Positions 6,900 to 11,583 of a stretch of 13,035 bases of DNA are shown here, piece after piece. The DNA is from Lysobacterales bacterium (GTDB taxonomy: Bacteria > Pseudomonadota > Gammaproteobacteria > Xanthomonadales > Rhodanobacteraceae): contig JAAFHE010000035.1 of the NCBI GenBank assembly GCA_013298265.1, positions 1 to 13,035 of the forward strand. The letters run 5' to 3'. Numbering within the stretch: position 1 is the first letter of the stretch; each line of letters opens with the position of its first letter. The notes below the pieces were generated by a model. It was not told the DNA's origin, made no database searches, and saw only the letters and a list, made by a program, of their open reading frames with translations. A program made the translations under genes and the position numbers.

Positions 6900-8261
6900 A
6901 TGCGCCGTTACCTGCCGTTGCCATCGCTGCTGCTGGCATTGCTGCCGCTGTTCGCAGCCGCACCCGCCTTCGCCGCGACCTATCAGGTCGGGCCGGCGCG
7001 CACGTATACGACGCTCAACCAGCTATTCGCGGCGGTGAATCTCGGTGGCGGCGACATTGTCGAGGTGGACGGCAATGTCACGTATCCCGGCGGTGTCGTC
7101 GTGCCTGCGGCCGACGGCGGCAGTAGCGGCAATCCGGTCGTGATCCGCGGCATCCGCGTCAACGGCCAGCGCCCGCGTATCGACGGCAGCACCAATACGG
7201 TGGAATTCCGTCAGTCGAACTACGTCGTCTTCGAAGGCTTCGAGGTGACCGGCGGCAGTTCCCGCTGCATCCTGCAGGGCGCGCACGAAGTCACCGTGCG
7301 CGACAGCGTGATCCATGACTGCGCGGGACACGGCATCCTCGGCACGGACCAGTTCTCCGGCTCGTTCACGCTGGAATATTCCGAGGTCTACAACGCCGGT
7401 GCCGGCACCTCGCAGCATCCGCTGTACATCCAGAGCGACGAGATCGCCTGGCCCGGCTCGGTGTTCCGCATGCGCTACAACTACATCCACGACGGCAACG
7501 GCGGCAACCTGCTCAAGTGCCGGCACGAGCGTGCCGAGGTCCACTACAACTGGTTCCAGGGCGCGGCCTACCACGAGCTTGAACTCATCGGCCCGGACGA
7601 GGCGACCCAGCAGAGTGGCTGGACCCGCGACCTCGTGCGCGAGGACCAGGACGTGGTCGGCAACGTCATCGTACACAGCAATCCCGCGTTCGGCGCGGTC
7701 GTGCGCATCGGCGGCGACGGTTCCGGCGTCAGCAAGGGCCGCGCGCGCTTCGTCAACAATACCTTCCTGCTCACGTCCGGCCAGGACACCACGGTGTTTC
7801 GCATTTTCCAGGAAATGCAATCGGTAGAAATGCACAACAACGTCATCGACGTGACCGCCGGCGGCGTGCCGCGCATCATCCGCGCGGTGGACGGCGAGCT
7901 GGTCTGGACCGACGGGCGGCAGATACGCGGCAGCAACAACTGGATCGAAAGCACGTCGAGCTTTGTGCCAACGGTCGGTGAGTGGGCCGGAACCTTGACC
8001 GGCACGAATCCCGGATTCACCAACGCCGCGAGCTTCGACCTGCGCCCGGCCGCCGGCAGTCCGCTGCGCAATGCCGGCAACAATGCGCCGGCCAGCAATC
8101 CCGCCTTCGCCTTTCCCGGACCCCTGTTTCCTCCGGCCTTCCTGCCGCAGCGCGGCGTTGCGGCGGTCGGCGCAGCGCTGTCGCGCCCGACCGACGGGCT
8201 CATCGACATCGGCGCGCTGGAACTTGCGACCGACGGCATCTTCGCGAACGGGTTCCAGTGA
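6900..8261 (+). CDS. Secreted right-handed beta-helix protein (choice-of-anchor Q-like end) with IFANGFQ tail
   Basis: This 453-residue protein has a clear signal peptide (MRRYLPLPSLLLALLPLFA, cleaved near APAFA-ATYQ). The mature part reads as a parallel right-handed beta-helix of the polysaccharide lyase/pectate lyase superfamily: repeated short strands such as YVVFEGFEVTGG, HEVTVRDSVIHDC, FRMRYNYIHDGNGGN and VEMHNNVIDV, rich in N and H at the turns. SPLRNAGNN followed by DIGALE (residues 436-441) is the C-terminal wording of choice-of-anchor Q proteins. In other bacteria this element is followed by an interchangeable surface-sorting signal. Here only LATDGIFANGFQ follows. The heparinase-like protein at 9436 ends the same way. 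The likely place is outside the cell or on its surface, and the likely substrate is a glycan; enzymatic activity is unproven. The start is fixed by the signal peptide and CGGAG 8 bases upstream. Confidence 0.85.
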   Translation: MRRYLPLPSLLLALLPLFAAAPAFAATYQVGPARTYTTLNQLFAAVNLGGGDIVEVDGNVTYPGGVVVPAADGGSSGNPVVIRGIRVNGQRPRIDGSTNTVEFRQSNYVVFEGFEVTGGSSRCILQGAHEVTVRDSVIHDCAGHGILGTDQFSGSFTLEYSEVYNAGAGTSQHPLYIQSDEIAWPGSVFRMRYNYIHDGNGGNLLKCRHERAEVHYNWFQGAAYHELELIGPDEATQQSGWTRDLVREDQDVVGNVIVHSNPAFGAVVRIGGDGSGVSKGRARFVNNTFLLTSGQDTTVFRIFQEMQSVEMHNNVIDVTAGGVPRIIRAVDGELVWTDGRQIRGSNNWIESTSSFVPTVGEWAGTLTGTNPGFTNAASFDLRPAAGSPLRNAGNNAPASNPAFAFPGPLFPPAFLPQRGVAAVGAALSRPTDGLIDIGALELATDGIFANGFQ

Positions 8262-8297
8262 TTCGGTTGACGGCTGCGATGGCAAGCCCAGCCTGCG

Positions 8298-8909
8298 TCA
8301 GTCGTCAGCCTGCCCGCGCCGGCTCGGCCTCACCGGCAGCGGGGCGAGTATCCAGGCCAGTGCGATCAGCTTGTCGCGCGATGCACTGCGTGGTTTGTGC
8401 AGCAGTTCGAGCGCGCGGGTCAGCAGGCGGTTGATCTCGGCCAGGTCGCGCCGGTCGACCCAGCCTTTGCCGCGCGAGGCCCAGACTTCGCGTTCCGCGC
8501 CTTCCGTCGCCACGTCGCTGCGCTTGAGCGCGGCGGAAAAATCGCGCGTGGCGATGCGCATCATGCTCGCGCCGGCCCTGTCCACCGCCGCTGCTCCGGC
8601 ATTGCGACCGCCGCGGTAGCGCAGTTGCAGACGCGAGCCCTTGTCCGCGCGCGTGCGGTAGCGGCGGCCCTCGCCGTCGTCGGGAAGCTCCTCGAGCAGG
8701 CCGCCGCCGACGAGCAGGCGCAGGTGGTAGTACAGGCCGTCGGCGGGGCGGCCGAGCTGCGCGGCGAGCGTTGCGACCGAGGCTTCGCCACCGAGCGCTT
8801 CCAGCGTATCGACGAGTTCCTGCCGCGCCGGTGCGGCGAGCAGGGCGATCTGACGCGGCTTGTCGACCACACGGCCGGCGGCGGGGCGGGGCTTGCGGGG
8901 CTGTGCCAT
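8298..8909 (-). CDS. ArsR-like winged-helix transcriptional regulator
   Basis: This 203-residue protein has an N-terminal winged helix of the ArsR/HTH_20 kind at about residues 17-78. ALLAAPARQELVDTLEALG opens it, ASVATLAAQLGRPADGLYYH holds the recognition helix, and LRLLVGGGLLEELPDDGEGR leads into the wing. No Cys metal-binding pair is present, so it is not a metal sensor of the classic ArsR type. The C-terminal 120 residues, rich in Arg and Ala with a helical stretch AEINRLLTRALELL, match no ligand domain I recognise. It is expected to bind DNA as a dimer. A perfect palindrome at 8938-8951, 28 bases before its start codon, is a natural autoregulatory site. It stands between the two secreted proteins that share the IFANGFQ tail and is transcribed opposite to both. 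Confidence 0.8.
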   Translation of the reverse strand: MAQPRKPRPAAGRVVDKPRQIALLAAPARQELVDTLEALGGEASVATLAAQLGRPADGLYYHLRLLVGGGLLEELPDDGEGRRYRTRADKGSRLQLRYRGGRNAGAAAVDRAGASMMRIATRDFSAALKRSDVATEGAEREVWASRGKGWVDRRDLAEINRLLTRALELLHKPRSASRDKLIALAWILAPLPVRPSRRGQADD

Positions 8910-8937
8910 CGATTGGTTTTCCTTCGTTGAAATACTG

Positions 8938-8951
8938 ATTGAATATTCAAT
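8938..8951. promoter_or_regulatory. Perfect 14-bp AT-rich palindrome, candidate operator of the adjacent regulator
   Basis: ATTGAATATTCAAT is a perfect palindrome in an otherwise very GC-rich region. A further TTGAA half-site lies 12 bases to the left (8927-8931). It is 28 bases upstream of the ArsR-like regulator's ATG and 75 bases upstream of a possible signal-peptide start at 9027. Palindromes with TTGAA/TTCAA arms are the typical form of ArsR-family operators. Confidence 0.55.
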
Positions 8952-9026
8952 GGAAGGACAGTCAGCCGCGGTGTGACCGACTGCAGCCGCCAGCGGGCGC
9001 GTTGCAGGTCAAAACGGGAGAAAGCC

Positions 9027-9435
9027 ATGTTTGTACCTGCGCTATGGCTGTTGCTGGCGGCGTTGTCAAGCGTCGCGAGTGCCGCGCCCAATGCGGCCGC
9101 CCCTGCGGGTGCCGGCCAAGGTGGCCAGCGGCGGCGAAAGCCGGAACACGGCCCCGAGTCTGTCGGAGTGGGCGAGATAGAGGCCGCCGCGCTCGGCGGG
9201 CTAGTGGAAGCGCGGGAGAACCTGGCCACGGACCACCGTGTCGCGTTGCCGCCTTGGCCCTTTCCAAGGTCGCGACTGGCTGTGAGGGCAGCGAGGCAGC
9301 CCGTCTCGACGCGCCCGGGCGCGCTGCGGCAGGCCGGCGGACCGGTGGCGCGCCCGGCCTGGCGTAACGCGACGCCGGCCACCGTTGTGCAGGAAAGCGT
9401 CCGATACCCTACGCCCAACTGCCTACGGACCCGCC
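9027..9435 (+). other. Possible start of a small or decayed secreted-protein gene
   Basis: An ATG at 9027 with a well-placed GGGAG (9016-9020, 6-base spacing) opens a frame that begins like a signal peptide: MFVPALWLLLAALSSVASA, then APNAAAP. The frame then continues as Gly/Arg-rich and finally Arg/Pro-rich sequence. It stays open until 9878, overlapping the heparinase-like gene in another frame for more than 440 bases, so the full frame cannot be real. Third codon positions are less GC-biased than in neighbouring genes. Either the N-terminus is a remnant of a gene whose rest has decayed or been lost, or the resemblance is chance. The rest of the 484-base stretch between 8952 and 9435 holds nothing else I can support. 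Confidence 0.25.
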
Positions 9436-11583
9436 ATGTATTCCTACCTGTTCCGCGTTGTCATCGCGCTGCTGGCCGGCGCACCGCTGCTCGCGCACGC
9501 TGTCAGCCTGGACATTCCCGCCGGCCATCCGCGCAACTGGTACGGCAACGCCGCGCGTCTGAGCCAGGCGCGCGCGCACTTCGGCTCGACGCCGTTCACG
9601 CCGGCCGGCGAGCCGACCACGCTCGCGTTCGGCCGCGCGCTGCGCGGCCTGCTCACGAACAGCACGACCGACTGCGACCAGGCCGTGGCCTATCTGAGCA
9701 CCTGGGAGGCGCCGGCCGGCATCGGCGGTTTCCGCGATGCCACGCGCCAGCAGGGCGAGGCGCTGCTGCTGATCTACGACTGGTGCCATCAGCGCCTGTC
9801 ACCCGCGCAGATCACCACGCTGGTCGCGCGCTGGAACGGCTACATGGATCGCGACAACGGCGACGATTTCGCCAATGAAGGCTCCGAAGCGAACAACTAT
9901 TTCTGGGGCCGCGTGCGCAACAACCTGCTCTGGGGCATCGCGAGTTTTGGCCATAACCCGCGCGCGCAGGAATTCATCGACAACGCGCTGGAGACGCGGC
10001 TCGGCGTCTGGTTCCCGTCCTGGTACCAGGACTTCGGCCGCGGCGGCGTGTTTCCCGAAGGCGCGGACTACGGTTCCGTGACACTGTCGTATCCGATCGT
10101 GCCGTTCCAGAGCGCGGCGGATTTCGGCTTCGACCCGTATGCGCAAACTCCGTATTTCCGGGAAGCGCAGTACGCGCTGATCTACGGCACCACGCCCGGC
10201 CCGACCAGCATCACCGGCGTCCCCCCCGCCGGCAACGTGCTGTTCCCGTTCAACGACGACGCGACCTTCTTCGAAGGCAGTCCGATCAACGTGCGCACCT
10301 ACTACGGCGATGCCGCGCGCTATTTCGGCCAGCGCAACCCGGCCAGCGGCAACGCGCGCCACATGCGCGCCTGGCTCGCGGCGACGAACGCGGGGCGCAG
10401 CTGGATGTTCGATGCCTTGGGCGGGGCCGGCCAGCCGGCGGACTTGAACGCCTTGCCGCTGGACTATTTCGCGCCCGGCGCGGCCGTGTTCTACGCGCGC
10501 AGCGCGTTCGATGCGAACGCGAGCGCGCTGCATGTCCAGCTCGGTACGCCGGGCGGTGTGCAGCATCGCCACCGTGACGCGGGCAATTTCCAGTTCTGGC
10601 GCAAGGGCCGCTGGATCACGCGCGAAAGTGTCGGCTACTCCAAGCCGCTGCGCGGCTTCGGCGGTGTCGGGCAGATCGATACCGAGCACCACGTCGCGCA
10701 CAACGGCCTGCTGTTCCAGGGCCGCACGACCGGGCGCTGGGTCGGCAGCGGGCCGATCGTGATTCCGCCGGGCGCCGATCGTGGCGACCAGCCCGACGGA
10801 CTGCCCGAGGTCGTGCGCCTGCACCACCATCCGGAATTCGGCTACGTCGCGACGGATTTTTCGAAGGCCTACCGCAATACCGGCGGACGCCGCGTCGACT
10901 GGCCGTATGCGGACAAGGCCGTGCGCGAGTTCCTGTTCCTGCGCCGCTTCGGCGCGCTCGTGATCCTCGACCGTATGCGCGCCAGCGGTGACTCGCAGCT
11001 ACCGTTCTACTTCACGCCCAACTGGATCAGCAGCATCGAAGGCAGCGGCGCGCCGGACCCGCAGGCCGTGCATGTGAATGCGGACGCCGTGGTGCGCACG
11101 TTTCTGATGCACTTCGAGACCGCGCCGACGACCGTGGCCAATCGCGCCAGCGCGACGGTCGGCAACCAGGTTGCCGAACTCATCACGCTGCTGCCGGCCA
11201 ATCCGGTTTACCGGGTCGTCAACGAGGACGTCGCCGGCGCCGAGCTGTACGGCCAGCACCGTCTGGAACTGGATTCCAGCGGCAGCGTCGAGAGCTATTT
11301 CATCAACGTCGTGCACGGCCGCGACAGCGGCGCGACCGCGCTGGCCGCGAACCTCGTCGACAACGGCGGTAGCTGGACGCTGACCTTGAGCGATGCGCTG
11401 CAGGGCAGCGTCAGCGTGGTGCTGCTCAAAGGCATGGCCTCGAGCGGCGGCAGCGTCACCTTCGGTGCTGCCGCGCCGGTGCCGCTGCACGGTGGCGTGC
11501 AGGGCATCACGGTCACGAGCGAGGGACCCGTCTGGGCATCGCTGCAGGATGCGATCTTCGCGAACGGGTTCCAGCTGCCGTGA
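9436..11583 (+). CDS. Secreted heparinase II/III-like protein (putative polysaccharide lyase) with IFANGFQ tail
   Basis: This 715-residue protein starts with a signal peptide (MYSYLFRVVIALLAGAPLLAHA, cleaved before VSLDIPAG). The N-terminal half looks like the alpha/alpha-toroid of heparinase II/III and alginate lyase-type enzymes, with EGSEANNYFWGRVRNNLLWG (residues 148-167) and FPEGADYGS (206-214). The second half begins with the family signature, here QHRHRDAGNFQFWRKGRW from residue 376 (His377, His379, Asp381). In relatives, H-x-H-x-D-x-G contributes to the metal or active site next to the beta-sandwich. Relatives cleave uronic-acid polysaccharides by beta-elimination; the substrate is unknown. 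It ends LQDAIFANGFQLP, sharing seven residues with the end of the beta-helix protein at 8261. The ATG at 9436 is chosen for the signal peptide; the Shine-Dalgarno sequence is weak. Together with the beta-helix protein it suggests extracellular glycan use. Confidence 0.85.
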   Translation: MYSYLFRVVIALLAGAPLLAHAVSLDIPAGHPRNWYGNAARLSQARAHFGSTPFTPAGEPTTLAFGRALRGLLTNSTTDCDQAVAYLSTWEAPAGIGGFRDATRQQGEALLLIYDWCHQRLSPAQITTLVARWNGYMDRDNGDDFANEGSEANNYFWGRVRNNLLWGIASFGHNPRAQEFIDNALETRLGVWFPSWYQDFGRGGVFPEGADYGSVTLSYPIVPFQSAADFGFDPYAQTPYFREAQYALIYGTTPGPTSITGVPPAGNVLFPFNDDATFFEGSPINVRTYYGDAARYFGQRNPASGNARHMRAWLAATNAGRSWMFDALGGAGQPADLNALPLDYFAPGAAVFYARSAFDANASALHVQLGTPGGVQHRHRDAGNFQFWRKGRWITRESVGYSKPLRGFGGVGQIDTEHHVAHNGLLFQGRTTGRWVGSGPIVIPPGADRGDQPDGLPEVVRLHHHPEFGYVATDFSKAYRNTGGRRVDWPYADKAVREFLFLRRFGALVILDRMRASGDSQLPFYFTPNWISSIEGSGAPDPQAVHVNADAVVRTFLMHFETAPTTVANRASATVGNQVAELITLLPANPVYRVVNEDVAGAELYGQHRLELDSSGSVESYFINVVHGRDSGATALAANLVDNGGSWTLTLSDALQGSVSVVLLKGMASSGGSVTFGAAAPVPLHGGVQGITVTSEGPVWASLQDAIFANGFQLP

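Follow-up and report, generated by a model that had tools for sequence, protein, structure and literature searches.

A shared C-terminal tail at the locus

In a stretch of 13,035 nucleotides from a Lysobacterales bacterium (the window), two genes encode exported, unrelated proteins, a right-handed beta-helix protein and a heparinase II/III-like protein, which end in the same short C-terminal tail, referred to here as the tag (Table 1). The initial annotation had reported this shared tail and its identity over 21 bases, and both the coordinates and the reading frames were confirmed. The 21 bases, ATCTTCGCGAACGGGTTCCAG, are identical at 21 of 21 positions, and both copies are in frame at the gene ends. 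The beta-helix protein ends in ..DIGALELATDGIFANGFQ (stop codon 8259-8261) and the heparinase-like protein in ..SLQDAIFANGFQLP (stop codon 11581-11583). The signal peptides proposed earlier for both carriers agree with the hydrophobic, signal-like segments read from the sequence at the two N-termini. A Pfam scan of the heparinase-like protein gave no match at E ≤ 1. The 60-base flanks of the two copies match at 18 of 60 positions upstream and 17 of 60 downstream; because the flanks are unalike, the copies do not belong to a gene-conversion tract.

Table 1. Carriers and copies of the C-terminal tag in the window
Feature	Positions	Strand	Remarks
Right-handed beta-helix protein, exported, tag carrier 1	6900..8261	+	453 aa from likely start 6900; Pfam PF13229, 1.4e-8
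C-terminal tag D-G-I-F-A-N-G-F-Q of the beta-helix protein	8232..8258	+	Shared 21 bases at 8238-8258; same hexapeptide class genome-wide
Heparinase II/III-like protein, exported, tag carrier 2	9436..11583	+	715 aa from likely start 9436; some homologs so named by their sources
C-terminal tag D-A-I-F-A-N-G-F-Q of the heparinase-like protein, with trailing L-P	11548..11580	+	Shared 21 bases at 11554-11574

Anatomy and spread of the tag

The pattern F-x-x-G-F-[EQ] followed by a stop codon gave 16 matches in the genome of the window and 0 for the reversed pattern used as a control, and these genome-wide counts exclude chance as the origin of the shared tail. One match (L002) is followed by TGG, not a stop codon, and another (L016) is an 8-codon fragment at a contig end with the same matched bases as L001. 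In the remaining 14 genes, the tag ends an open frame of at least 118 aa as fetched. The heparinase-like protein of the window falls outside the 16 matches because two residues come after its tag. The tail is therefore not confined to the two window proteins, a possibility that the initial annotation had left standing. Among the 14 tagged frames are an ExeM/NucH nuclease (422 bits), a dioxygenase-like protein whose N-terminus is Tat-like, a protein that matches the delta-60 repeat under the cut-off and, by eye, several beta-helix-like proteins; others we take to be subtilase-like, FG-GAP-like (both judged by eye) and DUF1501-like. The DUF1501-like protein has a Tat-like N-terminus, and two such N-termini were seen by eye among the tagged proteins of this genome (L010 and L015). 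The choice-of-anchor Q-like region that had been assigned to the window beta-helix protein is matched there only below the cut-off (NCBIfam, 13.1 bits, cut-off 25); the domain was found above the cut-off on two other tagged proteins of the same genome (L009 and L012), where the tag closely follows it.

For the anatomy of the tag, 114 tags were read in stretches fetched from five genomes. Their core, [LIV]-F-x-[DN]-G-F-[EQ], stands at the very C-terminus or stops a few residues short of it, mostly on exported proteins with unrelated folds. Residue -1 is L, I or V in 104 tags, residue +2 is D or N in 105, and the core closes with E in 106 tags and with Q in 8. The core of the motif D-x-IF-x-x-GF first suggested for the tail was thus retained, and its leading D, present at -3 in 36 of the 114 tags, was reduced to a preference. 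The core lies 0, 1, 2 and 3 residues from the C-terminus in 95, 12, 5 and 4 proteins, respectively, and 5 and 9 residues from it in one each; the stretches were selected by exact-end tags, so the figure of 95 is biased, and the 21 tags at distances 1 to 3 are unselected. Internally, the core occurred 9 times in 387,520 residues, a rate that predicts about 0.07 cores at distances 1 to 3 among 994 proteins, compared with the 21 seen. Of the 114 tags, 94 have the E or Q of the core as their final residue. The tag logo, covering 8 residues before the core and a few after it, showed no conserved hydrophobic run and no basic end; the absence of a helix was judged on this logo, with no helix predictor run on a longer upstream stretch.

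At the nucleotide level, 95 tags comprised 90 distinct versions, counted within genome and peptide. Because synonymous codons vary and the flanks differ, the tag is conserved as protein and was not copied as DNA. The perfect DNA identity of the two window copies would suit a local duplication, a gene conversion or a chance match without function, but this explanation is very improbable, and gene conversion and chance were rejected, given the unalike flanks, the nucleotide variety, the 16 matches against 0 in the control and the spread through the order. That the tag itself is real and modular is near certain.

The tag is concentrated on proteins with export-like N-termini. By a crude rule, such N-termini were found on 100 of 114 tagged proteins and on 348 of 815 untagged neighbors, which is at odds with an equal occurrence on cytoplasmic proteins. 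The type II secretion system (T2SS) acts on proteins already in the periplasm, and the Sec- or Tat-type N-terminal signal expected of its substrates was found on tagged proteins by the same rule. Since both Sec- and Tat-type N-termini occur among tagged proteins, their common step lies after transport into the periplasm.

In both window families, the tag follows the end of the conserved domain through a short variable linker. The strict core lies no more than 10 residues from the C-terminus in 82 of the best 120 of 151 heparinase-like homologs and in 108 of the best 120 of 1458 beta-helix homologs, the window protein included. Among the matches listed for both families, many homologs without the strict core have close variants, for example LLRDGFE and QMYDGFE, and others, mostly more distant ones, have no tag. 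A different tail is common to the tag-less heparinase-like homologs P0113, P0114 and P0118 and the tag-less beta-helix homologs P0229 and P0231 (the latter labelled by its source as a Luteimonas metagenome-assembled genome, MAG); it combines a G-x-x-P-L-x-P-P-like motif with a W/R-rich end, the two separated by a linker of tens of residues, and is possibly another C-terminal sorting tail in lineages without the tag.

In a sample of 299 genomes of the order, the pattern had 2312 matches, compared with 395 for the reversed control. Because the counts rest on the strict pattern, variant tails are missed. The highest counts per genome were 67 in family f4, 64 in f9, 58 in f12, 51 in f5, 30 in f1 and 26 in f2, and the majority of f1 and f2 genomes had 0 to 3. 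Genomes with at least five tags and a match to GspC, a component of the T2SS, averaged 24.3 matches versus 2.1 in the control (80 genomes); those with fewer than five tags and no GspC match averaged 1.1 in both (175 genomes). Machinery beside single tags in low-count genomes was dismissed as a lead, since the matches read there were background: short frames and, in untagged f1 genomes (L132, L134, L142, L146 and L150-L152), a conserved protein, zinc-ribbon-like by eye, that ends in FExGFE. In a class-wide sample of 229 genomes, three of them from the order (the genome of the window had its 16 matches), none outside the order exceeded 11. The top family there was f86, in which G372 and G499 had 11 and 7 matches and 0 and 2 control matches.

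A stricter scan of named genomes (D-x-I-F-x-[DN]-G-F-E-stop) returned at least 118 stretches, with titles for 80. Among the matches listed, 104 of 123 end frames of at least 150 aa, and the sources include Marinicella, Dokdonella, Tahibacter, Rudaea, Pseudofulvimonas, a Xanthomonas-labelled MAG and Lysobacterales MAGs, which bears out the suggestion of similar tails in Dokdonella-like genomes in the initial annotation. MAGs labelled Alcanivoracaceae, Bacillota, Pseudomonadales, or by class or phylum only, were also listed. The tags in Alcanivoracaceae-labelled MAGs (L270, L276, L277, L306 and L335) look genuine and reflect either mislabelling or spread outside the order.

Co-distribution with a second type II secretion system

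A search for the secretin GspD in a panel of 58 genomes gave matches in 57, 56 of them above the cut-off; the untagged G019 had no match, and the untagged G001 had only a sub-cut-off match. Except for G097, the tagged genomes of this panel encode a shorter, class-A secretin in addition to a longer one, and a class-A-like secretin was found in only one of nine untagged f1 genomes (G230), with classes assigned by eye from score and frame length. The class-A locus (T2SS-A) has the order gspC-gspD-gspE, with gspF next to it or near, and gspF lies by ftsE where seen. Its neighbors are rhlB, trx and rho in f1, f2, f3, f10 and f12 genomes, and in one genome each of f4, f5, f6 and f9 it lies at least 27 kb from rho or on another contig. 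In the untagged G100 (f1) and G013 (f2), rhlB is directly joined to ftsE with no gspCDEF between them, and rhlB and ftsE are also directly joined in G171 and G063 (f8).

The GspC protein of T2SS-A combines T2SSC (PF11356) with a C-terminal PDZ domain in six of six proteins scanned, some of the PDZ matches being under the Pfam cut-off. Against solved structures, the GspC profile matched OutC, the PulC PDZ and the EpsC PDZ. An AlphaFold model predicted a confident helix, homology region and PDZ domain, with a mean predicted local distance difference test score of 78 (PDZ blocks 83-94, last block 74), a low-confidence linker and a predicted template modeling score of 0.38. The Xps-type GspC of Xanthomonas is described with a single helix in place of the PDZ domain (PMC11981180).

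Co-distribution was tabulated for genomes with at least five tags and a GspC profile match at E ≤ 1e-33, with counts given as both, tag only, GspC only and neither. The counts were 80, 13, 31 and 175 for all 299 genomes (Fisher 7.5e-33, relatedness uncorrected), 11, 0, 1 and 64 for f1, 2, 0, 0 and 76 for f2, 30, 2, 0 and 1 for f9, and 43, 2, 1 and 141 for the three families together. In f1 and f2, GspC was found in 13 of 13 tagged and 1 of 141 untagged genomes and, by genus, in 6 of 6 tagged and 1 of 37 untagged genera (Fisher p 1.1e-6). At thresholds of 1e-38, 1e-24 and 1e-12, the overall counts became 78, 15, 31 and 175; 80, 13, 38 and 168; and 80, 13, 42 and 164, respectively. These results show that the tag is co-distributed with T2SS-A in f1 and f2 and, with one untagged genome, in f9.

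G230, the sole GspC-only genome of f1, f2 and f9, has a different, all-in-one T2SS cluster. The two tag-only genomes of f9 are incomplete MAGs, and in G019, the only f9 genome without tags, GspD gave no match and GspC none over the threshold. The tag-only genomes G048, G059 and G178, which also have no Rho match, and G212, in which the contig ends inside rhlB, look like assembly gaps. G118 and G182 are 94% and 81% complete. The matches in G200 and G216 are short chance frames in the loci read (4 and 3), and G063 has a tag on a long frame at one of four loci read; the tags of G112, G122 and G171 were left out of this locus reading.

Candidate readers of the tag

The tag is likely a sorting signal. 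The explanation that we favor, with a probability of about 0.48, is that it is a modular C-terminal sorting tag for proteins exported by T2SS-A, with the PDZ domain of GspC as its likely reader. The core, with 0 to about 10 trailing residues, is carried by dozens of unrelated proteins, which cross the inner membrane by Sec or Tat and would be marked by it for T2SS-A (in several families rho-trx-rhlB-gspC-gspD-gspE, close to gspF and ftsE). In the periplasm, the PDZ domain of GspC would bind an exposed F-x-[DN]-G-F hook, probably shaped by an N-G or D-G turn between the two Phe residues, and bring the folded protein to the secretin; the tag would then be needed for export or sorting. Because residues are tolerated after the core, F-x-[DN]-G-F would be recognized rather than a free carboxylate, and classical PDZ binding of a free C-terminus is disfavored. 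Secretion of VesB is reported to require the EpsC PDZ domain, and the OutC PDZ domain to bind a disordered loop of PelI (PMC12369372). The determinants reported for EpsC-VesB and OutC-PelI lie in Ig/Fn3 folds or loops (PMC12369372 and PMC7949064), unlike the linear C-terminal motif that the tag would represent. Evidence of this kind for GspC PDZ domains on some substrates, together with the common periplasmic step of tagged Sec and Tat proteins, is why we favor T2SS-linked sorting and regard anchoring after export as its main rival. According to the initial annotation, the tail could be recognized by an exporter, a protease or an anchoring machine of an unknown kind; a putative recognition tag is supported, and the co-distribution points to a PDZ-bearing T2SS rather than a wholly unknown machine.

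Several observations weigh against T2SS-A sorting. The link with secretion genes suggested for profiling across the order was found for GspC in f1, f2 and f9 and not in f8 (2, 8, 4 and 25) or f10 (7, 1, 26 and 9), which showed no association; across the 299 genomes, 13 have the tag with no GspC match and 31 have GspC with few tags. The threshold of 1e-33 was set after the values were seen, to include the partial GspC of the window genome (G000:C527, 121 bits, 1.9e-34); at 1e-12, GspC-like matches appear in three untagged genomes of f1 and four of f2, and every one of the 299 genomes has weak PDZ matches. G097 (f8, 98% complete) has 11 matches, of which four of four loci read end frames of at least 181 aa (the N-terminus is export-like in one, and two are truncated at the 5' end), and has no class-A GspC or GspD match, with rhlB and ftsE directly joined. 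The counts were made without a tree, and imply at least one loss each in f1, f2 and f9 if the families are clades and the system is ancestral. The trailing residues misfit classical PDZ binding, so that an internal-motif mode would be needed. In V. cholerae and Dickeya, the GspC PDZ domains function with no known linear tag (PMC12369372 and PMC7949064). The systems profiled were the T2SS (GspD and GspC), rhombosortase and exosortase only, which leaves room for a third factor as the true partner. As for f8 and f10, a PDZ hairpin is about six residues shorter in the aligned GspC proteins of both families and not in G176; hairpin length was set aside as the cause of these exceptions and kept as a lead only, as the tagged G117, G079, G163 and G173 also have a short one.

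Recognition after or beside export, by a surface or periplasmic anchoring or processing protein to which T2SS-A merely delivers the tagged proteins, as with GlyGly-CTERM proteins in Vibrio, is rather unlikely. The tag closely follows the choice-of-anchor Q domain in L009 and L012, and G097 keeps tags without T2SS-A, which fits this alternative. Some tagged families also carry anchors elsewhere: in Shewanella, ExeM has a GlyGly-CTERM motif where the tagged ExeM/NucH nuclease has the tag (PMC6085458). According to Haft and Varghese, species with GlyGly-CTERM in general also possess a T2SS (PMC3237569). GlyGly-CTERM and the tag are alike in their placement on many unrelated exported proteins, ExeM nucleases among them, in a many-to-one logic and in the T2SS link; GlyGly-CTERM, however, consists of a motif, a transmembrane helix and a basic cluster, and the tag is 6 to 9 residues with no conserved helix or basic end. 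Against anchoring, exosortase (TIGR02602) was found in 0 of 45 genomes, and rhombosortase (TIGR03902) was above the cut-off in only 3 of 45, namely the untagged G230 and G013 and, unlike in GlyGly-CTERM systems, only one tagged genome, G097; other enzyme families were not searched for. Weak rhomboid matches occurred in 45 of 45 genomes and in all 14 controls. Rhombosortase and exosortase were therefore rejected as readers for nearly all tagged panel genomes. In G230, the all-in-one T2SS cluster (L188, G230:C47) has a rhombosortase-family gene (131.6 bits, above the cut-off) beside gspC.

Other C-terminal sorting systems were compared in the same way. The tails of PEP-CTERM/exosortase, LPXTG/sortase and MYXO-CTERM/myxosortase resemble the tag in having moved among diverse exported proteins, often many per genome. 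Unlike the tag, they are tripartite with a membrane helix (PMC3237569 for LPXTG and PEP-CTERM, PMC11980579 for MYXO-CTERM). The motif, helix and basic tail of LPXTG are not in the tag logo (sortase genes were not searched for), and the claim that the tail is none of GlyGly-CTERM, PEP-CTERM or LPXTG was upheld by the logo and the absence of exosortase. In Bacteroidota, the C-terminal domain of the type IX secretion system acts as a soluble signal by which proteins are directed through the outer membrane; it is a folded domain of about 70-100 residues, far longer than the short motif of the tag. A sorting enzyme encoded beside tagged genes was not evident among 1047 clustered proteins near tags in five genomes (G237, G150, G091, G003 and G015), which also argues against anchoring: untagged families near tags in at least three of the five resemble kinases, sigma factors, ABC ATPases, regulators and housekeeping enzymes, and none seems sortase-like. 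Two families named by resemblance, one Ser/Thr-kinase-like (17 members) and one ECF-sigma-like (9 members), recur near tags (L107, L115 and other stretches), as counted without a background rate.

A general periplasmic factor, such as a chaperone or a PDZ protease of the DegS/Tsp kind, could instead read the tag for quality control, its overlap with T2SS-A reflecting common ancestry and parallel loss. In its favor, the link with T2SS-A fails in f8 and f10, and counts from related genomes are not independent observations. Against it, proteases of this kind would also be expected where the tag is absent, which leaves the patchy tag unexplained, and tag and system are jointly absent from many f1 and f2 genomes and one f9 genome. 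We consider this explanation improbable.

C-terminal sorting tags are already a known kind of signal; new here is a short tag, without a membrane helix, that is linked to a T2SS subtype. NCBIfam release 20 had no family covering the tail itself in 12 proteins scanned, and no description of the tail was found in listings of open-licence PubMed Central literature, in which string matches, judged by title and the opening of the abstract, look like broken words. The choice of substrates by the T2SS is an open question, and authors in the field describe its substrates as having no linear universal or common signal (PMC12369372 and PMC7949064). A linear T2SS signal would be categorically new. We put forward only tentatively that the tag is the first linear, modular one, a C-terminal hook of 6 to 9 residues that would be read by the GspC PDZ domain on dozens of proteins per genome throughout the order and lost with T2SS-A. 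The tail predicts candidate substrates by the dozen in each genome, and there is one domain that is a candidate for its reader. Even with another reader, it would be an unusually short, membrane-helix-free C-terminal sorting tag for Gram-negative bacteria, and would be of use in annotating exported proteins of Dokdonella, Tahibacter, Marinicella and many uncultured Lysobacterales.

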